Below are positions 19,858 through 32,123 of a stretch of 64,000 nt of DNA, piece by piece (within the stretch, counting starts at the first letter, position 1; each line of letters starts with the position of its first letter). This stretch comes from Candidatus Aminicenantes bacterium (GTDB lineage: Bacteria; Acidobacteriota; Aminicenantia; Aminicenantales; UBA4085), in assembly GCA_026393855.1 (NCBI GenBank), contig JAPKZJ010000007.1, forward strand, positions 1 to 64,000, read 5' to 3'. A program made the position numbers and the translations under genes. A model generated the notes under the pieces. That model made no database searches, was not told where the DNA came from, and worked only from the letters and a program-made list of their open reading frames with translations.

Positions 19858-20958
19858 TCAGCCGATCCGGCGGCGGCGGCCGATCCAAATGAGCCCGGCG
19901 ACCGAAACGACGACAAAGAAACCAGCCAGCGCGGCTTTCAGGCGGGAAGTCCTCCCGCCGCCGGATGCTTCCGCAGAAGCGGGCGAAGCGAACGGCATCG
20001 GATCCCAGGGGATCCCATACCTCTCGCACAAACCTCTGACAAAGAGCAGGTGAACGACGGGGACCCCCTTCGCCGCCCAGGCCTGAATGAGGCCGCGCCT
20101 GGCGACGGGCGGGATGCTCACATCCGCGGCCGGGTTGAACCCGGGCCTCAGCTTCAACACCTCGGAATCGGTCCCCATGTCCACCCAACTTCCGCCCACG
20201 TTGACGAACGCCTTGATCGGCGCGCCCGCGGCCCAGGATTCGAACAAGCGAATCCTAACCGCCACCTCCGCCGTCAAATCCCCGGCTGCCAGGAATTCCC
20301 CTCCCCACTCTTCGATACGGCGCCGCAGGAGCGCCCTCCCCTCCGGCGCCATGTCCAGGCCCATGTCCCCCTCGCCCCCGATCGAGGCGGCTATGATCGG
20401 GACATCGAGCACACCCGACTTGTTCAGGCTCTCGACAATGTCGAGGCCCGTCCAGCGGGGATCGTTGGCCCCCCAATTCGACGCCCCCAGTGAAACGATG
20501 GGCAAGGCCCGCGCACCCATGGCCTGAGCCGCGCAAAGGGTCGCGACGACCAGCCCGGGGAATGAGCTCGAGGCGCCTACGGCAATGGCATCGCCCCGGC
20601 CGACTCCGGCCTCGTGGAGCATTCGGACAACGGCCCCGGCCAAGGCCGGATTGGCTGCCGTCCGCTTGGCCTCGAGATGACCAAGCGAGGTTGTAGTGGG
20701 CGACGCCTCCCGCCCGATAAGGCCGGTGAGGTTGAGATCGGTCCGCTCGTCGATTGCGAGCCCGGCAGCGGCTCGGGCTTCGCGCAAGGCATCCAGGGCC
20801 CGGGTCATCAACCGGACCGCGTCGCCGGCATCCTCTTCGGCGGCGGGCCGCGGCGGCGCGACGGGCAGCAGCGTCCGCAGGACGATGAACAGCCCTCCCA
20901 GGATTCCCAGCCAAGCGAGCGGAAAGCTCAGGTTTCGGTTTGAATCGCGCTTGGCCAT
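19858..20958 (-). CDS. pgsW: Poly-gamma-glutamate system protein PgsW
   Basis: The 366-residue protein has an N-terminal membrane helix (about 10-28), a soluble alpha/beta domain and a C-terminal membrane helix ending in an Arg-rich tail. The motifs GRGDAIAVGASSSFPGL and LPIVSLGASNWGANDP fit the PgsW family found with pgsB/pgsC in poly-gamma-glutamate gene clusters; its exact role is not established. Its ATG follows the PgsC stop by a single base. It is the last gene of the cluster. No PgsA/CapA (the export/anchoring hydrolase-like subunit) is seen. Confidence 0.75.
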   Translation of the reverse strand: MAKRDSNRNLSFPLAWLGILGGLFIVLRTLLPVAPPRPAAEEDAGDAVRLMTRALDALREARAAAGLAIDERTDLNLTGLIGREASPTTTSLGHLEAKRTAANPALAGAVVRMLHEAGVGRGDAIAVGASSSFPGLVVATLCAAQAMGARALPIVSLGASNWGANDPRWTGLDIVESLNKSGVLDVPIIAASIGGEGDMGLDMAPEGRALLRRRIEEWGGEFLAAGDLTAEVAVRIRLFESWAAGAPIKAFVNVGGSWVDMGTDSEVLKLRPGFNPAADVSIPPVARRGLIQAWAAKGVPVVHLLFVRGLCERYGIPWDPMPFASPASAEASGGGRTSRLKAALAGFFVVVSVAGLIWIGRRRRIG

Positions 20959-20959
20959 T

Positions 20960-21385
20960 TCAGAAGAGCAGGCTCGCCAGAGCGACCGTGAGCGCCGTTG
21001 CCCCCGCCAGGGAGGCCAGGGTCGGTCCCGGCTTCTGGCGGACGAGATTGTTGGCCAGCAAGCCGGGGATGACCCAGCCGATGACCCGGAGATCAACCGG
21101 ACCCGAGAAGAGCCGCGGCCAGAGCAGGAGCCAGGCCTGCCCGATCAGCCCGCCGATAAAGAGCATGAAGACGAACCTGCGGCGGCCGAACAGCAAAAAC
21201 CATCGGGACAGGAGGCGATAAGCCCCGAACGCTAAAAAGGCCGCGGCCAGCGTGGCCGCGATCCGCCAGGGCTGGTTGGCATACAAGGCCAGATAAGCGG
21301 GGACGATAAGACCGCCCGGCAAGACACCCGTGATTTCCGTCCAAAGCAGAGCGACGGCCAAGCCGAGGAGGATCGAGGCGGCCAT
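20960..21385 (-). CDS. pgsC: Poly-gamma-glutamate biosynthesis membrane protein PgsC/CapC
   Basis: The 141-residue protein is all membrane: about four or five helices, with the PgsC-like segment TGVLPGGLIVPAYLALY about residues 18-34 and GWVIPGLLANNLVRQKP about 101-117. The internal repeat of the G-x-x-x-P-G-L-x-x/N-x pattern is characteristic. PgsC forms the membrane complex with the PgsB ligase. Its ATG overlaps the PgsB stop by one base (TGATG), so the two are translationally coupled in the expected order. Confidence 0.85.
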   Translation of the reverse strand: MAASILLGLAVALLWTEITGVLPGGLIVPAYLALYANQPWRIAATLAAAFLAFGAYRLLSRWFLLFGRRRFVFMLFIGGLIGQAWLLLWPRLFSGPVDLRVIGWVIPGLLANNLVRQKPGPTLASLAGATALTVALASLLF

Positions 21386-22581
21386 CAGACCGGCTCCCCG
21401 TTCGCGGCCCAGAAATCGATCAAGGCCGTTCCGATGCCGACAATGTTGCCCATGCCGATGAGGCAGGCATCCCCACCGGCCAAGCCCACAGCCGCGGCCA
21501 TGATGCGAGCCGGATCGGATGCCGACGAGGCCGAAACAGCCGTCCCCGCCGGTGCGAGCCGGCGGAGCCGCCGGGCAATGGGGAGGGCGTGGTCGCCCAG
21601 GACCATGATTCCGGCGAAAGCCTTGAAAAAGCCACGGCCCGCGGCCTCCAGCCATTGCCGGGTCCGGTCTTCGCGGTCGGCCCGAAAGGCCAGGACGGCC
21701 ACTCGCCGTTCGGGCAGCCCGGGGAAAGCCAGGGCCAGACGCTCTAGGGACAAGGCCGTCGACTCGGGTTCGTTGGCGGCAAAAAGGCTGACGGCGCAGG
21801 CCGGGGGCGAAAATTCGGGAATCCGGAGTCGCCAGGCCTTAAGGCTGCCGAAGTCAGGCGCGGCGGCGGCCAAGCCGGCTTTCAACCGGCCGTCGTCGAC
21901 GCCGCAATACCGGGCGACCGCCTCCGCCAGACGGATATTGACCGGAAATTCCACGGCCGCCCCGCCGGTGACCACGGGACGCCTTTCGGCCGGATCGCCG
22001 GAGATGGGCGTCAGGCGGCATCCGACCCGGCGCGCGGCCTCAGCGTAAATAGGGAGCATCTCCTCCTCCGGCAGGAAGGCCACGACGCCCGGGATAAAAG
22101 CCCGAGCCAGCGTCGCGGCGATCTCTTCGCGGGTCCGCCCCATCTCCTCGCGGTGATCGAGCCGGGCGTTCGTGACGACCAGAATATGGGGTCGCAGGAT
22201 CTTGCCGGCCTCGGCCCGCAGCGTCTCGGGCCCGATGCTCATCATCTCGGCCACTAGGGCGTCGGCCCGCATCCGGACGGCCGCCCGGACGACCGATCTT
22301 TGCTCCAAAATGGACGGCGGGCCGGGGCGCCGGATCTCCGTCTCCTCTCCCCCCGGACCGATCAGGGCCGGCCGGGATCCGGTGGTCTTGGCCAGGACGA
22401 TGCGCCCGTCCGCCCGCAGGGCCGCGGCGACGAGCCGGGTCACGGTGGACTTGCCGCGCGTCCCGGTCACGGCGATCCGCAGCGGGATGCGGCGGCAAAA
22501 AGCCTCCAGGCGGACCCGCTCCGCTCCCAGGGCGGCCAGACCGGCCGCGGCCAAGGCCGAGGGGACAAGGATGTCGATCAC
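21385..22581 (-). CDS. pgsB: Poly-gamma-glutamate synthase subunit PgsB/CapB
   Basis: The 398-residue protein is an ATP-dependent amide ligase of the Mur-ligase superfamily. It has an N-terminal membrane helix, the P-loop TGTRGKSTVTRL (about 38-49), RPHILVVTNARLDHREEMG and a C-terminal LIGMGNIVGIG. PgsB polymerises glutamate through gamma-amide bonds at the membrane with PgsC. I chose GTG 22581 because the membrane helix starts here; a TACAAT hexamer lies six bases upstream and no Shine-Dalgarno is visible, so a leaderless mRNA is possible. Together with pgsC and pgsW it forms an operon for a gamma-polyglutamate capsule, released polymer or osmoprotectant. Confidence 0.88.
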   Translation of the reverse strand: MIDILVPSALAAAGLAALGAERVRLEAFCRRIPLRIAVTGTRGKSTVTRLVAAALRADGRIVLAKTTGSRPALIGPGGEETEIRRPGPPSILEQRSVVRAAVRMRADALVAEMMSIGPETLRAEAGKILRPHILVVTNARLDHREEMGRTREEIAATLARAFIPGVVAFLPEEEMLPIYAEAARRVGCRLTPISGDPAERRPVVTGGAAVEFPVNIRLAEAVARYCGVDDGRLKAGLAAAAPDFGSLKAWRLRIPEFSPPACAVSLFAANEPESTALSLERLALAFPGLPERRVAVLAFRADREDRTRQWLEAAGRGFFKAFAGIMVLGDHALPIARRLRRLAPAGTAVSASSASDPARIMAAAVGLAGGDACLIGMGNIVGIGTALIDFWAANGEPV

Positions 22582-22632: not shown

Positions 22633-22672
22633 AAAAAAAAAGAGGCGAAGGAGCTTGGGTCTCCTTCGCCTC
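22633..22672 (-). terminator. Intrinsic terminator (minus strand)
   Basis: The 12-bp perfect stem (GAGGCGAAGGAG with CTCCTTCGCCTC, 22642-22653 and 22661-22672) with a 7-base loop is followed, on the minus strand, by nine consecutive T residues (22641-22633). No protein gene ends here, so it must terminate a non-coding transcript. Confidence 0.9.
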
Positions 22673-22731
22673 CCCACTGAAAGGAAGAGAGTTGAAAGGT
22701 ATATTGTAGGCGCTCGGGAAGCGCCTTTGTC
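22634..22731 (-). ncRNA. Candidate sigma-54-dependent small RNA (about 98 nt)
   Basis: No reading frame explains a strong minus-strand terminator standing alone between two divergent genes. Upstream of it on the same strand is a -24/-12 promoter whose predicted start is about 22,730. The RNA between them would have a 5' hairpin (AGGCGCT/AGCGCCT, 22708-22726) and a 35-nt pyrimidine-rich single strand containing CCTTTCA twice and CTCTCTTCCTTTC. A 12-bp terminator stem with nine U residues closes it. This is the classic layout of a base-pairing small RNA. TTCCTTTC is complementary to GAAAGGAA in the ribosome site of the receiver gene at 27,417. It is not matched to a known RNA family; expression is unproven. 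Confidence 0.6.
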
Positions 22732-22740
22732 CCTGATTAG

Positions 22741-22757
22741 AGCACGAATCGTGCCAA
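22741..22757 (-). promoter_or_regulatory. -24/-12 (sigma-54) promoter of the candidate small RNA
   Basis: The minus strand reads TTGGCACGATTCGTGCT, with GG and GC separated by the required ten bases. The -24 element is a consensus TTGGCAC; the -12 element is GTGC rather than TTGC. A dyad GGCAG-ATCG-CTGCC (22761-22774) abuts it upstream and a palindrome TGAGCGCTCA lies further up (about 22,811-22,820), either of which could bind an activator. The element itself is also part of a near-palindrome (GCACGATTCGTGC). Confidence 0.65.
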
Positions 22758-23026
22758 TTTGGCAGCGATCTGCCGTCTTTTTTCCCCCTGAAAATAGACC
22801 CCCGGCCGCACTGAGCGCTCAAACCTGCAAAAAAAGTTTACAGAAACCCACTTTCTTTACTTTTTTCGCCCCCGGATGGGGACATGAGCCGGAGCAAAGC
22901 CCCCCACCTTCATCCAGTTCCCACATACAGACCGGGATTCCCGCTCGATTTTCCCGCTTTGGCCGAAACTTGATAATATTAATCAAGTTGCCTATGATGA
23001 TTCTTCAAGGAGCGGCAGAGGAAGCC

Positions 23027-23617
23027 ATGGACCAGGGACGATATACTCTTACCGCGGCTCTGATCGCGGAGATCTCGCGCTGCACGCGGATCGTGCTGGC
23101 CAGAAAGTTCCCCGGCTTCTCCGAGGCCGCGCGGGAAGACATCGAGCAGGAAGTCCTGCTCAAGCTTTGCCGGATGGCTCAAAACGGGAAAAAGATCGAC
23201 CATCTGTCGTCTTATCTTTGGAAGGCCGTGACGACCACGGCTTTGGACTGGATGGAGCCCGAACGGGGGACGATCTCACTGGAAGGGTATCTGGAGAAAG
23301 CCCGCCCGGACAGGCTCCCCGAAGACTTGCTCGTCGTTTCCGGCCAGGAGGAAATCGAATTCCGCCGCCACTTGGAGAGCTTGCTCGAAAGGCTGCCCCA
23401 AAAACGCCGGCTCGTCCTCAAGCTCCACTTGTCCGGCCTGGGGCTGGAGGAAACGGCGGAATACCTGCATTGGACGCAGCCCAAGGTCCGGCACCTGTTT
23501 TACCGGGCCTTGGACCAGTTGAGGAAAATGATCCGCGAATCGCGAGAGGATGAAGATGAACCCGGAGAAACCCTCCTGTCCGTCGAACGAGGCGTTCGAG
23601 AAGTCCTTCCGGACTGA
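23027..23617 (+). CDS. ECF-type RNA polymerase sigma factor
   Basis: The 196-residue protein has region 2 (about 15-85: DIEQEVLLKLCRMAQ, SYLWKAVTTTALDW) and region 4 (about 118-170: LLERLPQKRRLVLKLHLSGLGLEETAEYL followed by VRHLFYRALDQLRKM). It has no region 1 or 3, as in extracytoplasmic-function sigma factors. The start at ATG 23027 follows GAGGA by five bases; an in-frame ATG at 22994 lacks a ribosome site. Its end overlaps the anti-sigma gene by 68 bases, so the two are coupled. The likely regulon includes the converging CHAT-domain gene. Confidence 0.88.
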   Translation: MDQGRYTLTAALIAEISRCTRIVLARKFPGFSEAAREDIEQEVLLKLCRMAQNGKKIDHLSSYLWKAVTTTALDWMEPERGTISLEGYLEKARPDRLPEDLLVVSGQEEIEFRRHLESLLERLPQKRRLVLKLHLSGLGLEETAEYLHWTQPKVRHLFYRALDQLRKMIRESREDEDEPGETLLSVERGVREVLPD

Positions 23618-24218
23618 CGCCCCGGCGGCGGAGCGGGAAGCCCTGGTCGATCATGTCCGCGTCTGCCCTCCTTGCCGGGCCAAGTGGGACGTTCTGTGGG
23701 AGCTGAAGAGGGAGATTTCCGGCCGCCGCGGGAAATTCGAGCGCTTGGCTGCCGCCAGCCTGGACGAATTGAGGGCGGACGGGGCGCCTCGAGCGACGCC
23801 CGGGCGGCTTCGGTTCGCATGGTTCCGGCGCAGTCCGGCGGCAGCCTGGGGGCTGCTTCTGGCTTTGACGGTCGCGGCCGGCCTCTATTTCGGCCCCTTC
23901 GCCCAGCGCGGAGACAGCCTCCGGAGCGGGGAAACCGGCGGTCTCGTTCTCCTCAGCCCGCGGGGGACGATAGACGGGTTTCCGGTTGAATTCCGCTGGT
24001 CGGCGCCGCCCAGCGCGGAAAGCTATTTTTTCGAGCTGATCGACGACCGCTTGATGATAATCATCCCGGAATCCGGCCTTAATGAACTCTCCTTCAGCCT
24101 GCCGATCGGCTACGAGAGCCGATTCCAGAAAGGCCGCACCTATATCTGGAGCGTGAAAGCCACGAACGACGCCGGCCAAACCGTCGGGACGAGCCAACAA
24201 TCGTTCTCGATCCGTTGA
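23550..24218 (+). CDS. Zinc-finger anti-sigma factor with extracytoplasmic domain
   Basis: The 222-residue protein starts with a zinc-finger-like segment (DHVRVCPPCRAKWDVL, the H-x3-C-x2-C pattern of ZAS anti-sigma domains, about 34-49). A membrane helix follows at about 98-116 (AAWGLLLALTVAAGLYF), then a roughly 90-residue periplasmic beta-sandwich-like domain (FRWSAPPSAESYFFELID...YIWSVKATN) resembling an Fn3 fold. It overlaps the sigma gene by 68 bases and should sequester that sigma factor until an envelope signal arrives. The periplasmic domain is the likely sensor. Confidence 0.75.
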   Translation: MKMNPEKPSCPSNEAFEKSFRTDAPAAEREALVDHVRVCPPCRAKWDVLWELKREISGRRGKFERLAAASLDELRADGAPRATPGRLRFAWFRRSPAAAWGLLLALTVAAGLYFGPFAQRGDSLRSGETGGLVLLSPRGTIDGFPVEFRWSAPPSAESYFFELIDDRLMIIIPESGLNELSFSLPIGYESRFQKGRTYIWSVKATNDAGQTVGTSQQSFSIR

Positions 24219-24273: not shown

Positions 24274-26847
24274 TCAATCCCCTATCAGGACGAACGGAGC
24301 CCAGGCGAAGGGCGGCTCGCCCGATCGAAGGGCCTCGATCTTGGCCTGGCGGAGGGCTTCCGGCTTGCTCGTTCCCCGCTTCCACAGCCGATAGAATGAA
24401 GCCATGAACCGAGCGGTGGCCTTGTCGTTGACGCTCCACAAGCTGATCAGGACGGATCTGGCTCCGCTGCGGAGGAAGGCGCCGGACAAGCCCATCACCC
24501 CTTCACCCTTCAACAGACTGCCGCCGCCGGTCCGGCAGCCGGAGAGGACCAGCAGCTCGGGACGGAAACGAAGGGAAAGCAGGTCCCCGGGCTGGAGGAA
24601 GCCGTCCTCTTCACCGTCTTTGTCCCTTTGGAGAAGGAGGGCCGAGCGCCACCAAACGGCGTCATCGAAAAAGCCGTGGGCGGCCAGATGGACGATTCGG
24701 TAATCGGCCAGCGGGAGCGATTTCAATCGGCCCTCGCCGGCATCCCGGCCGGTCAGAATCGTCCGCTTCGCGGCCGGGAACAGCCGGCCGATTGACCGGA
24801 CCTCCCGCATCGCGTAGGGCAGGCTTGGGAATCGCAGCTCCCCGCCGGCGCTCAAGCCGAAGAGCCGGTAGGGCAAGTCATTGGCTAAGCCGAGAAATTC
24901 CATCGGGTAGCCGGCCGGCGCCGGCCGGCGCCGGAGATCGATAAGCACCGAGGCCGAAGGTCCATAGCCGATGGCAAAGTCTTCGACCAGAAAACGCCGG
25001 CCTTCGGGTCCGCCCAATAGAGTCTCAAAGGGCAGATAGTGGAGAAGTCCGTCGGGGATGATGAGAATCTTCTTGATGCGAGGCGATAAACGGCCTTCGA
25101 AGGGGCTCCAAAGCGATTCCCGAAGCAGCCGGCCCCCGGACCAGCCCGCGAATTCGCGGGGCTCCCGCAGCGTCAGGAACCTCAAATAGTTCGAGATCCG
25201 CGGCCGCAGGGCTCCCTCGTTCGGGATTTCGGCCGTCCACAGGCCCTCCCGGGTCATGAGGAATGCATAGGACCGCTTTCCGCCCAGCACATATTCCAAG
25301 AGGGCGGTAGATTCGTCCAGGAGCTCGCGCCTGATTTCTTCAATCGAGGGCGCCGGGAGAGGGGCTCCGCGGGCGCCCGATGGATCCCGTTGCCTGACCC
25401 GGAGTAAGAAGGTCTGTCGCTCGGCATCGGCTTTGTCCAGCCGGCGCAAGAGGGCGGATCGGGCGTCAGGGGTCGCGCCGGGGTCCTGGAGCTCGGTCTG
25501 GATCCGGCTGATGGCGGAAGACACCCGCTTCATCTCGCGGCGGCCGTCATCCCGGGACATGCCCGCCAGATCGGTCTCGGCTCGGCGCAGATCGCCAAGA
25601 ACGCCTTGGGCCTTGGATCGTTCGGCCATGAGGAACGCGCGGCGATCGTATCCCTCGCCGGGAGCCAGGGCATGCCGGTCGAGCAGGAGCCCGATCGCCG
25701 TCTCATAGACCCCGATCTTGTCCTTTCGGAACCGGGTCCGGTGATCCGCCAAAGGAAGCCGGGACCCGACGCTCTCGATGAAATCGATCGTCCGGCCATA
25801 GCGCTCGATGGCCACGGCCGCGTCGCCCCTTTTTTCGGCCGTCTGGGCCGAGCCCAGTTCGGCCATCCAGCGCGCTTCCAGGCCGCCTCCGGCTTCGGTC
25901 AAGGCCAGGGCTTGCCGAAAGTGCGATTCGGCTCCCGCTAGATCCCCGCTGTCCAACGAAGATTGTCCCATCATCGCCAGGAGCAGCGAGTCCCGACGCT
26001 TGACCCGATCGGCCGATTCGGGCCGAGGGCCCCGGTCCGCCGCGAAAAGCCGATTGAGGCGCCGCGGAAATTCCCTTCTCTTGGCCCGCGCATCGGCAGC
26101 CGAGCCGGACCAGATGTCCGGGCCCAGATCAATTCGGTTGGTGCCGGGAGCCGGGATGGCCGGGAGGGACTCCTCCTTGACCATCATGCAGTCCCAGAGG
26201 ACGGCCCGGTCAACCTTGAAGAACAAGTGATTGCTCCCCGAAAAGGCAACCTTCGTCCTGGCGATTAAGCACCGTTCCGCCGAGAGGCTCCCGGCCTCAT
26301 TGGTGGAAAGACCTCTTTCGCAATTGCCGATGATGAGCCGGGACAACCGGGCCGATCCGACTCGGGTCCAGCGATCGTCAACGTCTACAGCGAACGTAAT
26401 GTCGAAGAAAGCCAGATCCGATCCGGTCCATTCGACATCGGGACTGTCCCTCTGGAGGAGGCCGAAGACCGAATCTTTCAGGATGAAGCCCGAGATGTCC
26501 ACGGCGGCCCGGACGATGAAAACGGCCGTCCGCGGCGCTTTCGAGCCGCAGACCACGGCTCCGAAGAGATTTTTGGACCGGATCGTGATCGGCTTGTCAA
26601 GAACGAGGTCTTGTTCGAAATAATACCCGTCGTCGACCTCGACGACATCCCCCGGCCGGGCGGCCGCGACGGCCAGCGAGATCAGCAGATGGTCCTGGGG
26701 AACGCGAATAGTCCGGGCTTGAGGGACGGGAGCGGCGGCCAGGGAACCCGGGATACAGGCAGCCAGGATGGCGAAAAGGCCAAGGAGACCCGCCCGGCTC
26801 AAAGCTGGGCGGGAATGCTTCGGACGCCGTCCCTCGGGCTTGGCCAA
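24274..26847 (-). CDS. CHAT-domain protease with beta-helix and TPR regions, probable lipoprotein
   Basis: The 857-residue protein opens with a signal peptide and lipobox (FAILAAC, Cys about 32), so it is probably lipid-anchored. Residues about 45-230 look like a right-handed beta-helix (TIRVPQDHLLISLAVAAARPGDVVEV and repeated short beta strands), and 290-370 contain TPR-like helices. The last 270 residues are a CHAT caspase-like domain with catalytic H724 (VHLAAHGFF) and C771 (LVLSGCRTGGG). CHAT proteases act in regulated proteolysis and cell-death systems; the substrate here is unknown. It starts at TTG 26847 after GGAAGGG. It faces the sigma/anti-sigma pair, a likely regulatory link. Confidence 0.85.
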   Translation of the reverse strand: MAKPEGRRPKHSRPALSRAGLLGLFAILAACIPGSLAAAPVPQARTIRVPQDHLLISLAVAAARPGDVVEVDDGYYFEQDLVLDKPITIRSKNLFGAVVCGSKAPRTAVFIVRAAVDISGFILKDSVFGLLQRDSPDVEWTGSDLAFFDITFAVDVDDRWTRVGSARLSRLIIGNCERGLSTNEAGSLSAERCLIARTKVAFSGSNHLFFKVDRAVLWDCMMVKEESLPAIPAPGTNRIDLGPDIWSGSAADARAKRREFPRRLNRLFAADRGPRPESADRVKRRDSLLLAMMGQSSLDSGDLAGAESHFRQALALTEAGGGLEARWMAELGSAQTAEKRGDAAVAIERYGRTIDFIESVGSRLPLADHRTRFRKDKIGVYETAIGLLLDRHALAPGEGYDRRAFLMAERSKAQGVLGDLRRAETDLAGMSRDDGRREMKRVSSAISRIQTELQDPGATPDARSALLRRLDKADAERQTFLLRVRQRDPSGARGAPLPAPSIEEIRRELLDESTALLEYVLGGKRSYAFLMTREGLWTAEIPNEGALRPRISNYLRFLTLREPREFAGWSGGRLLRESLWSPFEGRLSPRIKKILIIPDGLLHYLPFETLLGGPEGRRFLVEDFAIGYGPSASVLIDLRRRPAPAGYPMEFLGLANDLPYRLFGLSAGGELRFPSLPYAMREVRSIGRLFPAAKRTILTGRDAGEGRLKSLPLADYRIVHLAAHGFFDDAVWWRSALLLQRDKDGEEDGFLQPGDLLSLRFRPELLVLSGCRTGGGSLLKGEGVMGLSGAFLRSGARSVLISLWSVNDKATARFMASFYRLWKRGTSKPEALRQAKIEALRSGEPPFAWAPFVLIGD

Positions 26848-27036: not shown

Positions 27037-27417
27037 TCAAATGCGGGCGGCGCTTTCGTCCTTGGTCAGCAGATAGTCGATCGACCGGCTGATGGCGTTG
27101 AGGTCGAGCGGCTTGGCAAAAAAGTGCCCGATCCGCAGCCGGCCCAGGATCGAGGGATCGACGAGCTCGGCATGGGCGGAAATGAGGATGACCTCGCCTC
27201 GATACCCCCGGCGCCTCAGCTCGGTGATCAGCTCGACACCGTCCTTGCCGGGCAGGCGCAGGTCGGCAATGACCAGGTCATACCCGTTCTTCTGCTTGTC
27301 GAGGGCCTCCTCGGCGTCCTTGGCCGCGACCACGCGGTATTTGCCGTTGAGCAGGAGGACAAAAGTCTTGCGGATGGATTCTTCGTCGTCCACCACGAGG
27401 ATTTTCTTTCCCAGCAT
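27037..27417 (-). CDS. Stand-alone receiver-domain response regulator
   Basis: The 126-residue protein is a single receiver domain: acidic residues DDEES at the N-terminus, phospho-acceptor aspartate in LVIADLRLPGKDG, and the KPLD motif near 100. It has no output domain, so it acts by protein contact or in a phosphorelay. It starts at ATG 27417, seven bases after GAAAGGA. A sigma-54 promoter lies just upstream. It follows the kinase/NtrC-type operon but has its own promoter, so it may be a feedback or relay partner of that system. The candidate small RNA at 22,634 could pair with its ribosome site. Confidence 0.85.
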   Translation of the reverse strand: MLGKKILVVDDEESIRKTFVLLLNGKYRVVAAKDAEEALDKQKNGYDLVIADLRLPGKDGVELITELRRRGYRGEVILISAHAELVDPSILGRLRIGHFFAKPLDLNAISRSIDYLLTKDESAARI

Positions 27418-27450
27418 GTTTGTTCCTTTCTTCGAAGCCTCAGCCAATGA

Positions 27451-27470
27451 TTATGCAGGATTCGTGCCAA
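27451..27470 (-). promoter_or_regulatory. -24/-12 (sigma-54) promoter of the receiver gene
   Basis: The minus strand reads TTGGCACGAATCCTGCATAA. The GG and GC are ten bases apart, and the element has a consensus TTGGCACG and CTGCA. The predicted start near 27,443 gives a 26-base leader that contains the GAAAGGA ribosome site, an ideal fit. GATGCGTCCGG just upstream resembles GATTCGTCCGG found next to the promoter at 32,004. Confidence 0.8.
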
Positions 27471-27572: not shown

Positions 27573-28910
27573 TTAGGCGATTTCCAGGCTGTAGTCCTTG
27601 ATCTTCTTGTCCAGCGTCGGCCGGCTGATCTGCAGGATCTGGCTGGCCCGCGTCTTGCTGCCCTTGACCGCGGTCAGGACGTACCGGATGTATTCCTTCT
27701 CGACCTCTTCGAGCGAGGTCAGGGCCTTGGCGAACAGTCGCTTGTCCTCGAACTCCAGCGGCAGGTTCTCCTTGAGGACGACGTCGCCCTTGGCCAGGAT
27801 GACCGCCCGGGTCAAGGCGTTCTCAAGCTCCCGGACGTTGCCTTTCCAGGGCATATCGGACAGCAGCTTGATCACCTCGGCCGGGACTTTGCGGACGTTT
27901 TTTCGCAGCTCCCGGTTGATCTTCTCCAACAGGTACGCAACCAGTTCGGGGACGTCTTCCATGCGGTCCCGCAGGGCCGGCAGCTGGATCTCGACGACCT
28001 TGAGCCGGTAGTAAAGGTCCTCCCTGAACTTGCCCGACTCGATCAGGCCGCGCAGGCTCTGGTTGGTGGCGGCGATGATGCGGGCCTCGGTCTTGAGGAC
28101 CTTTTCCCCGCCCACCTTCATGAAATCGCGCGTCTCGATGACCCGCAGCAGCTTGGACTGGAGGTTGGGCGAGACGTCGCCGATCTCGTCCAAGAACAGC
28201 GTCCCCCGGCCGGCGATCTCAAACTTGCCCTTGGTCTCGCAGTGGGCGTCGGTGAAGGCGCCCTTGACGTGGCCGAAGAGCTCGGATTCGAGCAGGGTGT
28301 CCTGGATGGCGGAGCAGTTGATGACGATGAACGGTTCGTCGCGCAGCGGGCTGTTGTAGTGGATGGCCTTGGCCACCAGCTCCTTGCCCGTCCCGCTCTC
28401 GCCTTGGATCAGGACGTTGGTCCGGGTTACGGCGACCGAGCCGATCAGCTTGAAGACCTCGCGCATCGGGGCCGAGCGGCCGATGATGTTGTCGATCTGG
28501 TATTCCTTGCTCCGCTCCTGGACCAGGTAGCTGACCTTCTCCTCCAAGGCCCTGACCTGGAAAGCCTTGTCCACGGTCAGATCGAGAGCCACGTAATCGA
28601 GCGGCTTGACCAGGTATTCGAAGGCGCCCCGCTTGACGGCCTCGACCGTGGTCTTCATGTCGTCGTAGGCGGTCATGATCACGACCGCCGCCCCGCAACC
28701 GGACTCCTTGAGCCGCCGCAGGACTTCCAGCCCGTCGATGTCCGGCAGGCGGATGTCGCAGAGAACCAGATCGGGCTCGGCCTCCGCCGCCTGGGCCAGG
28801 CCGGACTCCCCGTCCTCGGCCGTCCGGACTTCGAAGCCCTGCTTGCCCAGGTGGGCCGCCAGGGTCTTGCGGATCAGGGCGTCGTCGTCGATGATCAGGA
28901 TCGATTTCAT
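27573..28910 (-). CDS. NtrC-type sigma-54-dependent response regulator
   Basis: The 445-residue protein has three domains. The receiver domain (about 1-118) has acceptor aspartate in LVLCDIRLPD. The AAA+ domain (about 140-375) has Walker A GESGTGKELVAKAIHY and Walker B TLFLDEIGD. The Fis-type HTH (about 405-442) includes TRASQILQISRPTLDKKI. The sigma-54 contact loop reads GAFTDA instead of GAFTGA, a substitution within the loop. Its ATG 28910 overlaps the kinase stop (ATGA), so it is cognate to that kinase. It is the natural activator for the four -24/-12 promoters seen in this window. Confidence 0.92.
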   Translation of the reverse strand: MKSILIIDDDALIRKTLAAHLGKQGFEVRTAEDGESGLAQAAEAEPDLVLCDIRLPDIDGLEVLRRLKESGCGAAVVIMTAYDDMKTTVEAVKRGAFEYLVKPLDYVALDLTVDKAFQVRALEEKVSYLVQERSKEYQIDNIIGRSAPMREVFKLIGSVAVTRTNVLIQGESGTGKELVAKAIHYNSPLRDEPFIVINCSAIQDTLLESELFGHVKGAFTDAHCETKGKFEIAGRGTLFLDEIGDVSPNLQSKLLRVIETRDFMKVGGEKVLKTEARIIAATNQSLRGLIESGKFREDLYYRLKVVEIQLPALRDRMEDVPELVAYLLEKINRELRKNVRKVPAEVIKLLSDMPWKGNVRELENALTRAVILAKGDVVLKENLPLEFEDKRLFAKALTSLEEVEKEYIRYVLTAVKGSKTRASQILQISRPTLDKKIKDYSLEIA

Positions 28911-30364
28911 GGCTCTCCCTCGCACGGCAGGTCGATTTCGAAGGCCGCCCCCGGGCCGCGCTTGCGGGCCGCCCGGATAGTCCCTTTATGCTGCTCGACG
29001 ATCTTGCGGGCGTTGGCCAGCCCCAGCCCGAAGCCCTGCGGCTTGGTGGTGAAGAACGGTTCGAAGATGTTATCCCAGTCCTTCTCGGGGATGCCGGCGC
29101 CGTTGTCCGAGATCCGGACCCGCAGCCGGCAGCCCGCCTCGGTCTCGGCTTTGCCCGTGGTGATGGTGATGCGCCCGCCCGGACCGAGGGCCTCGGCCGA
29201 GTTGCGCAGAATGTTGGCAAAGACCTGGCGCAGACGGTCGCCGTCGACCGCCACCTCGGGCAGGCCGGCGGCGTAGCGGCGCTCGACGGCGATCATCTTC
29301 TCGGCCAGGACGTCCCGCAGCAGCTTGACGCTCTCGTCCAGGACCTGCTCGATCCCGAAGCGGGCCTTCTGCAGGTCCGAGACGCGGGTAAAGTTGAGCA
29401 GTTCCTTGATGAACCGCTCGATCTGGGCGATGCCCTCTTCGGACAGGCTCATGTGCTCCTGCTCGATCTCGTCGAGGTGGAGGGAGCTGCGGACCTTCTG
29501 GATGTTGAGCTTGACGGAGGTCAGGGGGTTGCGGATCTCATGGGCGATGGTGGCGGCCATGCGGCCGATCTGGGCCAGCTTCTCGGACTGGACGAGCTTG
29601 CGGTTGGCCACCTCGATGACCCCCAGAGTCTGCTGCAGCTTCTCGCTCATGTCGTTGAAGTCGCGGGCCAGGCGGCCGATCTCGTCCTGCGAATTGATTT
29701 CGATCCGGTGCGAGAACTCGCCCCGGGCGATGCGGACCGTCCCGTCGGCCAGATCCTTGATCGGCCGGGTGATGCGGCGGGCCAGGACGGTGGCGCCCAG
29801 CGTCCCGAAGAGCAGCCCCACGGCTCCGATCAGAATGAGGACGAACCGGGTCCGACTGACCTGCCGGTCCAAGGCTTCGAGCGACAACCCCATCTTGACC
29901 GAGCCCCAATTGGCATCGGAGCCGCGGACGAAGATCGGCACCTCGACCTCGAGAACCCTGCGGATCTTCTTGGCGATATAGACATTCTTGGCCTGGGCGT
30001 AAGTCGGCGCGCCGCCGGAAGCTCTCTGCAACTGACTCGTCTGGGCCAGGGCCCGGTCGGCGGCGATGTCGCGGCTGGCCACCAAGCCGGTCCCGTAGCG
30101 GTCGAAGAAGGCGATGTACAACCGGTTGTCGTCGATCTGGGCGTCGACGTTGGCCTGCAGGTCTTCGATGTCCCAGACCTTGACCGAGCCCTGGTTGACT
30201 TCGGCCAAGTTGGATGCCGTCAGGAGGGCCCGGGTCTTGAACTCGTCGAAGATGATGCTCAGCTCGCGCCCTTGAATGACCCAAAGAATGGCGCCGACCA
30301 GGACCAGAACCAGGGCCGCCACCCACAGGGTGAACCGCTTTTGGATCGAGTTCGGCATGCTCAT
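28907..30364 (-). CDS. Sensor histidine kinase with HAMP domain
   Basis: The 485-residue kinase has two membrane helices (about 10-28 and 175-197) around an extracytoplasmic sensor of about 145 residues. A HAMP linker follows (RRITRPIKDLADGTVRIARG), then a short coiled coil. HisKA has the acceptor histidine in TIAHEIRNPLTSVKLN. The HATPase domain has ILRNSAEAL, DNGAGIP and GFGLGLANARKIVEQH. It starts at ATG 30364, which overlaps the stop of the solute-binding protein gene, and ends overlapping the NtrC-type regulator. The three genes are thus translationally linked, implying that the binding protein and kinase work together. Confidence 0.92.
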   Translation of the reverse strand: MSMPNSIQKRFTLWVAALVLVLVGAILWVIQGRELSIIFDEFKTRALLTASNLAEVNQGSVKVWDIEDLQANVDAQIDDNRLYIAFFDRYGTGLVASRDIAADRALAQTSQLQRASGGAPTYAQAKNVYIAKKIRRVLEVEVPIFVRGSDANWGSVKMGLSLEALDRQVSRTRFVLILIGAVGLLFGTLGATVLARRITRPIKDLADGTVRIARGEFSHRIEINSQDEIGRLARDFNDMSEKLQQTLGVIEVANRKLVQSEKLAQIGRMAATIAHEIRNPLTSVKLNIQKVRSSLHLDEIEQEHMSLSEEGIAQIERFIKELLNFTRVSDLQKARFGIEQVLDESVKLLRDVLAEKMIAVERRYAAGLPEVAVDGDRLRQVFANILRNSAEALGPGGRITITTGKAETEAGCRLRVRISDNGAGIPEKDWDNIFEPFFTTKPQGFGLGLANARKIVEQHKGTIRAARKRGPGAAFEIDLPCEGEP

Positions 30365-31989
30365 GGCCGGGGGCTTCTCCGATCCAGCCACAAGTCTTTG
30401 GCGTCGAGATAGCTCGAACCCAAGGGGGGCATCCGGACGCCGCGGACGTAGCTCTGGACCGCCAGCCGCTCCTCCTCGGTGAACAGCGGCACGGCCGGCA
30501 TATCCTGGCCCAGGAGCTTCTCCATGCGATGAAACAGCTCGATCCGCCGGGTCCAGCTCTTCTCGGCCGCGGACTCCTCGAGCAGCTTGTCCAAGGCCGG
30601 CGAAGAGTAATGGATCAGGAACTGGAGCCCATCCGTTCCCTGTCCGAAGAGAGGCAGGATGATGTTCTCGGCGTCGGGATAATCCATCAACCAGGTAAAA
30701 AACGTCAAGTAGGGGGTCCGGACGTCGAGCAGATCATCGGCCTTCGTGTACGTTCGGATGGAGACGGAGATGCCGACGGCATCCAGCTGGGCGGCGATCT
30801 CGCGGGCCAGGCGCATCGGCGCTTCGGCGCGGGGCTTGAGGACGAACAGCAGAAGGGAGGGGAAGCGACGCTCTCCGGAATACCCGAGTTCGTCTAGAAG
30901 CCGGCGGGCCTGTTCCGAGTCGAAGTGCGAGGTCTCCTCCAACGGAAGAAATCCCGGCAGCCCGGATGGAATATAGCTCGAGGCCTGGCGGCGGACCCGG
31001 TCCGGCGCTTGGGCCGCCTCGATCAGACGGTCCTTGTTGATGGCGGCCGCCACGGCCCGGCGGACCACACTGCGGTCGAAAGGCGGGATCTGGCAGCTGA
31101 AGCCCAGGTAAGATTCCTTGTAGGGGACGCCGACCACGGCCTGACAGCCGGAGTTGGCCATCCGATCCGAGAGAAACGGCATGATGTCGGCATCGCCGCT
31201 CATGAAATGATCAACGGTCAGATAAGGGCTGTATTCAACATGGTCAAGATAGGCCTTGCGGCCGTGGTACTGTTCGAACCGGTCCAGATGGACGCCCACG
31301 ATGTCCAGCTGAGGGCTGCGCATCCAGTTGGCGAATCGGAAGGGGCCCGTCCCGGACGGCTTGTCGAAGAAGCCCGCCCCCTCCTCGATCAGCTTGTCGC
31401 GCGGCAGGATCTTGCAGAAGCTCATGCTCAGCAGATAGAGGGACGCGACCGAGGGAGCCTTCCAGCTTACTTCGAAGACGTATTTTTCCGGAGCCCGGAA
31501 TCCGGTCACCTCGGCGGCCTTGCCGTCCCAGAACTCCTCGGCTCCGACGATCTTGCCGGCCAAAAGCCCGGCATAGGGCGACTTGGTCTCCCGGCGGAGC
31601 AATCGCTCGAAAGAGTATTTGACGTCCTGGGCATCGAATTCACGACCGTGATGGAAGCGCACGCCCCGCTTGAGGATGAACGTCATCCGACATCTGTCCT
31701 CGGAAACCATCCAGTATTCGGCCAGCGAAGGGACGAGATCGAGCCGGTTGTCGAGCCGGACCAGCCCTTCGAAGATCTGTTCGGTGGCGAAAACCCAGGA
31801 CGCGACGGCCGGGTCGAGATTGGGCTTAAGGGAGGTGGTGAAGTCGCGGACGCGGATCATTCCGCCCAACTTCGGCAAGTCCTCGCGGCCGGGCGAGGCC
31901 CCGGTCGCGGCGGCGACAGCGGCAACGAGCAGAAAAACGCAGGCACCCCAGTGAGGGGCGGCGGACAGACGGTTTTTAAGGCGGTTCAT
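30361..31989 (-). CDS. Family 5 extracellular solute-binding protein coupled to a kinase operon
   Basis: The 542-residue exported protein (signal peptide about 12-32) resembles the DppA/OppA peptide-binding family: EQIFEGLVRLDNRLDLVPSLAEYW near the N-terminus, LKRGVRFHHGREFDAQDVKYSFERLL, and FDSEQARRLLDELGY later. Such proteins normally deliver oligopeptides or similar solutes to an ABC permease. No permease or ATPase gene is adjacent. Instead the gene overlaps a histidine kinase by four bases, so it probably serves as the periplasmic ligand receptor of that kinase. A -24/-12 promoter lies directly upstream of ATG 31989, where no Shine-Dalgarno is visible. Confidence 0.82.
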   Translation of the reverse strand: MNRLKNRLSAAPHWGACVFLLVAAVAAATGASPGREDLPKLGGMIRVRDFTTSLKPNLDPAVASWVFATEQIFEGLVRLDNRLDLVPSLAEYWMVSEDRCRMTFILKRGVRFHHGREFDAQDVKYSFERLLRRETKSPYAGLLAGKIVGAEEFWDGKAAEVTGFRAPEKYVFEVSWKAPSVASLYLLSMSFCKILPRDKLIEEGAGFFDKPSGTGPFRFANWMRSPQLDIVGVHLDRFEQYHGRKAYLDHVEYSPYLTVDHFMSGDADIMPFLSDRMANSGCQAVVGVPYKESYLGFSCQIPPFDRSVVRRAVAAAINKDRLIEAAQAPDRVRRQASSYIPSGLPGFLPLEETSHFDSEQARRLLDELGYSGERRFPSLLLFVLKPRAEAPMRLAREIAAQLDAVGISVSIRTYTKADDLLDVRTPYLTFFTWLMDYPDAENIILPLFGQGTDGLQFLIHYSSPALDKLLEESAAEKSWTRRIELFHRMEKLLGQDMPAVPLFTEEERLAVQSYVRGVRMPPLGSSYLDAKDLWLDRRSPRP

Positions 31990-32003: not shown

Positions 32004-32020
32004 AGCAATCTTTATGCCAG
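32004..32020 (-). promoter_or_regulatory. -24/-12 (sigma-54-like) promoter of the binding protein-kinase-NtrC operon
   Basis: The minus strand reads CTGGCATAAAGATTGCT: TGGCA and TTGC with GG and GC ten bases apart. The predicted start near 31,993 leaves only about four bases before ATG 31989, so translation would be near-leaderless. GATTCGTCCGG lies immediately upstream. If real, the NtrC-type regulator activates its own operon. Confidence 0.55.
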
Positions 32021-32123
32021 ACCGGACGAATCGATTCTTCCGCCTGTTAAAAGCGCGGGCGCGCGCTCAACTCGCTAATAGATTACCAGAACGTAAAGAT
32101 ATTTTACAGTCTTGGCCTGATAA

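Follow-up and report, generated by a model that had tools for sequence, protein, structure and literature searches.

Organization of the Locus

The 64-kb stretch of Candidatus Aminicenantes DNA that we analyzed, hereafter the window, carries on its minus strand a predicted small RNA (sRNA) gene that is preceded by a sigma-54 promoter, followed by a capB/pgsB-like Mur-ligase gene, and linked to a two-component locus encoding a stand-alone receiver, an NtrC-family activator, a histidine kinase and a family-5 extracellular solute-binding protein (Table 1). The immediate upstream neighbor of the sRNA gene lies on the plus strand, the next minus-strand gene begins downstream of the sRNA terminator, and the window annotation contains no minus-strand gene ending at this terminator. 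The receiver gene and the sRNA gene are more than 4 kb apart in the window because a CHAT-domain gene (24274-26847, minus strand) and a sigma-factor-like pair (23028-24218, plus strand) intervene, and both of these are missing at the corresponding place in most relatives.

Table 1. Coordinates of the predicted sRNA gene, its control elements and the linked genes in the window.
Feature	Position	Strand	Basis or remark
capB/pgsB-like Mur-ligase gene, neighbor of the sRNA	21385..22581	minus	GTG start at 22581
sRNA gene, predicted length ~98 nt	22633..22730	minus	start from -12 spacing, end from T-run
Rho-independent terminator	22633..22672	minus	12-bp stem plus nine T; two compensatory pairs
Pyrimidine-rich single-stranded core CCTTTCAACTCTCTTCCTTTCAG, putative seed	22677..22699	minus	CCTTTCA twice
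5' hairpin GGCGC-N7-GCGCC	22709..22725	minus	sRNA fold; one compensatory G-C to A-T pair
Sigma-54 (-24/-12) promoter TTGGCACGATTCGTGCT	22741..22757	minus	read as TTGGCACG-ATTC-GTGCT
Candidate UAS GTAAACTTTTTTTGC	22827..22841	minus	differs from GTAAA-N5-TTTAC at one position; the -24 element follows after 84 bp
Stand-alone receiver-domain gene	27037..27432	minus	PF00072, E 1.7e-19
Sigma-54 promoter of the receiver gene, TTGGCACGAATCCTGCA	27454..27470	minus	-24/-12 pattern
NtrC-family sigma-54 activator (receiver, AAA+, Fis-type HTH)	27573..28925	minus	PF00072, PF00158, PF02954
Histidine kinase (HAMP, HisKA, HATPase_c)	28907..30391	minus	domain search
Family-5 extracellular solute-binding protein, at the head of the kinase/activator operon	30361..31989	minus	PF00496, E 5e-58
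Sigma-54 promoter of the operon TGGCATAAAGATTGCT with perfect UAS GTAAAATATCTTTAC (32093-32107)	32005..32107	minus	

Anatomy of the sRNA Gene

The terminator has a perfect stem (GAGGCGAAGGAG/CTCCTTCGCCTC, 22672-22642) closed by a 7-nt loop and followed by its T-run at 22641-22633, and it is the strongest terminator-like site between positions 20000 and 30000. The orphan minus-strand terminator claimed in the preliminary description was recovered in its exact parts, with no gene end at that place. Likewise, the -24/-12 promoter from which a start about 98 bases upstream of the terminator end had been predicted is present, placing the putative 5' end of the RNA at about 22730 on the minus strand. 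The promoter pattern TTGGCAYN6TGCW occurs at only two sites in the 64-kb window, those of the sRNA and of the receiver gene, where 0.05 would be expected, and genome-wide it had 16 matches versus 2 for the reversed control. The predicted fold showed a z score of -3.05, and none of 200 shuffled sequences was equally stable.

A scan of the sRNA against Rfam gave weak sRNA matches of 14-18 bits compared with cut-offs of 41-80; suhB/mmgR and BjrC80 were among the best of them, below the gathering cut-off. The sole Rfam match in the window is an nhaA-I riboswitch (RF03057) at 857-918 on the plus strand (53.7 bits, cut-off 37).

Conservation of the sRNA Among Relatives

A blastn search across 59 related genomes detected the sRNA element in all 12 genomes of the window's family (f1) and in two genomes of a second family (f7). 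All 13 loci with readable upstream DNA have the -24/-12 promoter at the expected distance and retain promoter, CU-rich core and terminator jointly, with one copy per genome. Such joint retention had been named in the preliminary description as the check on its proposal, and the opposite pattern, a terminator kept alone, was absent.

When the 14 copies were aligned, hardly any change was seen in the CU-rich core or in the lower part of the terminator stem, in contrast to the variable remainder. Across 5 genera, the TCTCTTCCTTTC region of the core scarcely varies, and GAGGCG/CGCCTC, the lower stem of the terminator, is invariant. The 5' hairpin and the seed with two CCTTTCA copies that had been described are both found in the window, but in relatives the duplication is not strictly kept: the second CCTTTCA is invariant, and the 5' copy reads CCTTCA in one genus. 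Among the closer genera there are three compensatory base pairs, one in the 5' hairpin and two in the terminator, and the core stems contain no broken pair. The 5' hairpin has been swapped for unrelated hairpins at three loci (L008, L012, L026) and is missing at three others (L009-L011). The notion of an orphan terminator that happens to stand near a chance promoter-like site, without any function, is barely credible in view of the compensatory changes and of the way in which all parts are conserved together in two families.

A covariance model made from the 14 copies and run on 94 genomes of the order returned exactly these 14 loci, one per genome, at E values of 1e-12 to 1e-17; elsewhere in the 94 genomes there was only noise, and the weak order-level matches were coding DNA. 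Among DNA-pattern matches on public records, the real ones are labelled Candidatus Aminicenantes or Acidobacteriota, and the matches on other contigs, outside such records, were attributed to chance. In addition, three loci from another class of the phylum (L122, L123 and L124) contain an intergenic anti-Shine-Dalgarno-like CACCTCCTTTCAG followed by a strong GC-rich hairpin, and an upstream GAAAGGAG there could pair in cis with CACCTCCTTTCAG. No sigma-54 promoter was seen before this element and its terminator at the three loci, which were set aside as look-alikes.

The Downstream Gene

The gene that follows the sRNA differs among relatives. The capB gene is next in g1 (G000, G002), g3 and f7; in g2, g4 and g5 its place is taken by the gene of a MerR-type regulator, with a radical-SAM gene after it, and G001 has a third, different gene there. 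The terminator is retained in all. The capB-like gene of the window has its own TACAAT box at 22593-22588, and in the capB-linked loci that were read a TATAAT-like box lies between the sRNA terminator and capB. These arrangements bear on whether the element could be a cis-acting capB leader, that is, a sigma-54 transcript whose terminator serves as an attenuator deciding capB-capC transcription. The adjacency of capB in g1, g3 and f7 and the terminator end only 50 bp before capB in the window are in line with a leader. Yet the single fixed downstream partner of a riboswitch or attenuator was not found for the sRNA, an alternative antiterminator stem is not apparent, and the sRNA has no Rfam riboswitch match. 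A capB leader is quite improbable because the next gene varies, the terminator is always kept and capB has its own promoter box. Since the conserved parts persist while the downstream gene changes, the evidence argues for a free-standing sRNA gene.

Two-Component Synteny and the Candidate Activator Site

A receiver orthologue is present in 50 of the 59 relatives, and its sigma-54 promoter was found in all of about 30 loci examined. In most relatives, the sRNA lies 0.2-1.1 kb downstream of the receiver gene, and going upstream from the sRNA on the same strand come the receiver, then the activator, the histidine kinase and the family-5 solute-binding protein; in G010 (L034), the order activator, receiver, sRNA, capB, capC is uninterrupted. 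The linkage of the sRNA to a two-component NtrC-type activator is therefore conserved, and the connection between the sRNA and a sigma-54-controlled receiver that had been claimed from the window does exist in the arrangement of the locus, as judged by synteny, sigma-54 promoters and related upstream sites.

A palindrome, GTAAA-N5-TTTAC, precedes the sRNA promoters, the promoter of the activator operon and the sRNA-position promoters of other families by some 55-100 bp; at the sRNA promoters, its usual distance from the -24 element is 79-88 bp. This candidate upstream activator site (UAS), with at most one mismatch, was identified at 10 of 13 sRNA promoters versus 0.045 expected from shuffles, and at 11 of 30 receiver promoters versus 0.235. 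The motif was read off these same loci and was therefore tested elsewhere, so that only other promoters and families provide an independent test. The combined pattern of palindrome, 50-80 bp and -24/-12 element was searched in 94 genomes and matched in 70 of them, whereas its reversed control had zero matches. Among the matches in genomes with a known receiver position, 20, in as many genomes, fell 4.6-5.2 kb upstream of the receiver, before the operon of solute-binding protein, kinase and activator, and 15 fell on its downstream side, where the sRNA is expected.

The upstream sites common to the sRNA promoter and the linked bEBP operon promoter are candidate binding sites of one protein. Because both promoters carry one palindrome, with putative autoregulation of the operon, the local activator is the likely regulator of the sRNA, and, judging from these sites, the NtrC-type activator encoded at the locus very probably drives the sRNA through sigma-54. 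Gene anatomy, conservation, synteny and common upstream sites can all be read directly in the genomes.

Two further observations concern the extent of the regulon. The gene of a conserved secreted protein that has about 350 residues and matches no Pfam family is preceded by the activator site and a sigma-54 promoter in f1 and f6 (G000:C125 (L412) and L405-L411), and this protein is probably a main protein output of the regulon. The sigma-54 promoter of a prepilin-like gene (L074, G000:C3) lacks this activator site, as would be expected under a different activator.

Diverged Versions in Other Families

The sequence model of the sRNA had no match in families f5 and f6. In many genomes of these families, the place that the sRNA would occupy after the receiver gene holds a second sigma-54 promoter with a UAS, and the RNA predicted to start there is a different one, though once more CU-rich in its core and closed by a terminator. 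Nine g15 genomes share a core built of CCCTTCTTT-like units in tandem, which hardly changes among them, while the preceding 150 nt vary freely. At the g15 loci (L354-L361, L373), a sigma-54 promoter whose activator site is perfect leads into a variable region with a GGGGAGGGAG/CTCCCTCCCC hairpin, and then come the near-invariant RNA segment CTCCTTTTTGCCCTTCTTTGCCCTTCTTTCCATTCCCCCTTCCTTCAATT and the terminator. By family, the core is single in f1 and f7, arranged as tandem CCCTTCTTT arrays in f6 and as double blocks in f5; in f2, f4 and some f5 genomes, no such RNA gene was seen in the stretch read. In the families in which the gene was found, what stays constant is therefore its promoter and activator site, its position, a CU-rich composition and the terminator.

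The nine g15 genomes have, after the promoter, an open frame 74-78 codons long that runs through the core, which would suit a gene for a small protein or for a bifunctional RNA under the sigma-54 promoter. We consider this very improbable, as changes in the frame are spread evenly over the codon positions (558/653/722), single changes comprise 370 non-synonymous versus 122 synonymous ones, and the g15 tail is conserved at the nucleotide level. Moreover, the sRNA of the window's family contains no conserved open reading frame. A small protein in the g15 version was rejected on the lack of codon-position bias.

Pairing and Candidate Targets

The conserved unpaired core CUCUUCCUUUCAG is anti-Shine-Dalgarno-like and complementary to ribosome sites of the GAAAGGAA type. 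The seed had been proposed to pair with the ribosome site of the receiver gene (GAAAGGAA, 27423-27430), with the caveat that the pairing could be generic. The complementarity holds, and GAAAGGA is kept in most receiver orthologues of the family, although not in other families; but GAAAGGAA precedes 26 ATG starts in the window's genome, which means that the caveat was justified and that the receiver pairing is not specific. The receiver mRNA, being one of 26 with this site, was dismissed as a specific target, and the match only weakly suggests that the sRNA silences it. More generally, a core so similar to a generic anti-Shine-Dalgarno sequence, with its partner site before so many starts, gives the sRNA no specific target.

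In the window's genome, the 11-nt perfect partner GAAAGGAAGAG was found in the sRNA gene itself only. An 11-nt partner TGAAAGGAAGA stands before a DksA/TraR-type zinc-finger gene in four genera (G002, G004, G005, G009), near matches to it precede the DksA-like gene in other genomes, and this is the only gene recurring with the 11-nt TGAAAGGAAGA before its start. The gene upstream of the DksA/TraR-like gene overlaps it, and its last codons (Met-Lys-Gly-Arg) form the ribosome site of the DksA/TraR-like gene (L222, L220, L224, L221). The overlapping Arg is encoded by AGA, which makes up 3% of Arg codons in a sample of window genes, and this rare codon hints at selection on the RNA. The site has one G-U pair in the window's genome and is lost in G001 and G011, and covariation with the diverged f6 seeds was not seen. 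The DksA-like gene was not accepted as a proven target, given that its site doubles as coding sequence of the upstream gene and shows no f6 covariation. It stays a candidate because two family members are without the site and the window's genome has the G-U pair; by these matches, it would be a better candidate than the receiver, but a confounded one.

The host genome encodes an Hfq-family protein (PF17209 above cut-off, G000 C34:19940-20095), as do 19 of 30 genomes in total at the same cut-off. The 3' end of the 16S rRNA was searched in these draft genomes and was not found.

The core could instead make the transcript a sponge RNA that binds a protein or a divergent Hfq, as CrcZ does, without mRNA pairing; we regard this as rather unlikely. 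CrcZ uses A-rich motifs, unlike the CU-rich core here, which is moreover complementary to ribosome-binding purines and which in the f1 RNA is a single strictly conserved copy. The tandem units of the g15 core are what a multivalent binding site would be expected to look like, and CrcZ, which is likewise a sigma-54 RNA adjoining its activator, acts through the Crc/Hfq complex, to which it binds (PMC8871633).

Pairing at ribosome-binding sites, with translation repressed as a result, appears the likeliest mode of action of the sRNA. In the model that we infer for its transcription, activator identity, repression by pairing and targets, the kinase, probably sensing its solute-binding protein, would phosphorylate the adjacent NtrC-type activator, which would bind GTAAA-N5-TTTAC and drive sigma-54 RNA polymerase at its own operon, the receiver gene, a few secreted-protein genes and the sRNA gene. 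The 5' hairpin and the terminator would protect the RNA of about 98 nt, while the exposed pyrimidine core CUCUUCCUUUCAG would pair with purine-rich ribosome-binding sites and repress translation. The repressed mRNAs would probably be several, possibly including those of the receiver and the DksA-like factor. Taken as a whole, a free-standing trans-acting sRNA gene, switched on by the local sigma-54 activator and repressing through core pairing, is the reading that we find likely.

Comparison With Known Systems

Like the CrcZ, Pxr and Qrr1 class, the sRNA has a -24/-12 promoter of its own. First, Pxr of Myxococcus is an intergenic sRNA of about 100 nt located downstream of the sigma-54 response regulator gene nla19, with its own sigma-54 promoter and with a position retained while its neighbors change (PMC5568312). 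Size, sigma-54 promoter, response-regulator neighbor and kept position are all similar in the Aminicenantes sRNA. Pxr folds into three stem-loops, of which SL1 and SL2 are conserved (PMC5684412), whereas conservation in the Aminicenantes sRNA rests on a largely single-stranded CU-rich core. Second, in CbrAB-CrcZ of Pseudomonas and Azotobacter, the two-component genes are followed by a separate sigma-54 sRNA activated by the neighboring NtrC-type regulator, and the synteny is kept across a family (PMC8871633). CrcZ resembles the Aminicenantes sRNA in having a sigma-54 promoter, in standing beside an NtrC-type two-component system and in its conserved synteny. It acts on the Crc/Hfq complex, whereas the Aminicenantes sRNA has an anti-Shine-Dalgarno-like conserved element, and the Aminicenantes locus, unlike CbrAB-CrcZ, has a stand-alone receiver gene between activator and sRNA. 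Third, Qrr1 of Vibrio is a trans-acting sRNA whose sigma-54 promoter is driven by the phosphorylated NtrC-family protein LuxO (PMC10162802). The wiring is alike in NtrC-family activator and sigma-54 promoter; the Qrr targets are known, whereas the Aminicenantes sRNA has candidate targets, and no sequence relation to Qrr1 was found.

A further comparison concerns the seed. NfeR1, an alpha-r14 sRNA of rhizobia, has ultraconserved anti-Shine-Dalgarno seeds in unpaired regions, with CCUCCUCCC in three hairpins, and it exerts feedback on NtrBC mRNA; NtrC represses it, whereas LsrB is its activator (PMC10746234). The Aminicenantes sRNA also has an unpaired anti-Shine-Dalgarno seed but, unlike NfeR1, carries it as CUCUUCCUUUCAG in one linker and has a sigma-54 promoter; the CCUCCUCCC repeated in three hairpins that marks alpha-r14 was not found in its sequence and fold. 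Overall, the wiring predicted here matches that of CrcZ, Pxr and Qrr1, and the tests run gave homology to none of them.

Implications

These results point to a real sRNA family in Aminicenantes, with a well-supported promoter, a probable activator and a mechanism that is in part inferred. The kind of system is known from CrcZ, Pxr and Qrr1; the RNA family is new and without an Rfam match, and our literature search joining Aminicenantes and small RNA found no paper. The arrangement of an NtrC-type activator with a neighboring sigma-54 sRNA, as in Pseudomonas, Vibrio and Myxococcus, now appears in Acidobacteriota. Because it shares the architecture but has an unrelated RNA body, this suggests that one circuit has been invented repeatedly.

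Aminicenantes are known mainly from metagenome-assembled genomes, and they now have a candidate RNA family, activator, binding site and small regulon. A wider proposal is an order-wide two-component circuit with a dedicated anti-Shine-Dalgarno RNA as its main RNA output, in which activator and site are constant, the CU-rich core is rebuilt in each family, and many mRNAs, including that of the DksA-like factor, are damped when the kinase fires. We put this forward tentatively and regard it as unlikely. If true, the order would have, under sigma-54 control, an RNA imitating the anti-Shine-Dalgarno tail of the ribosome itself.
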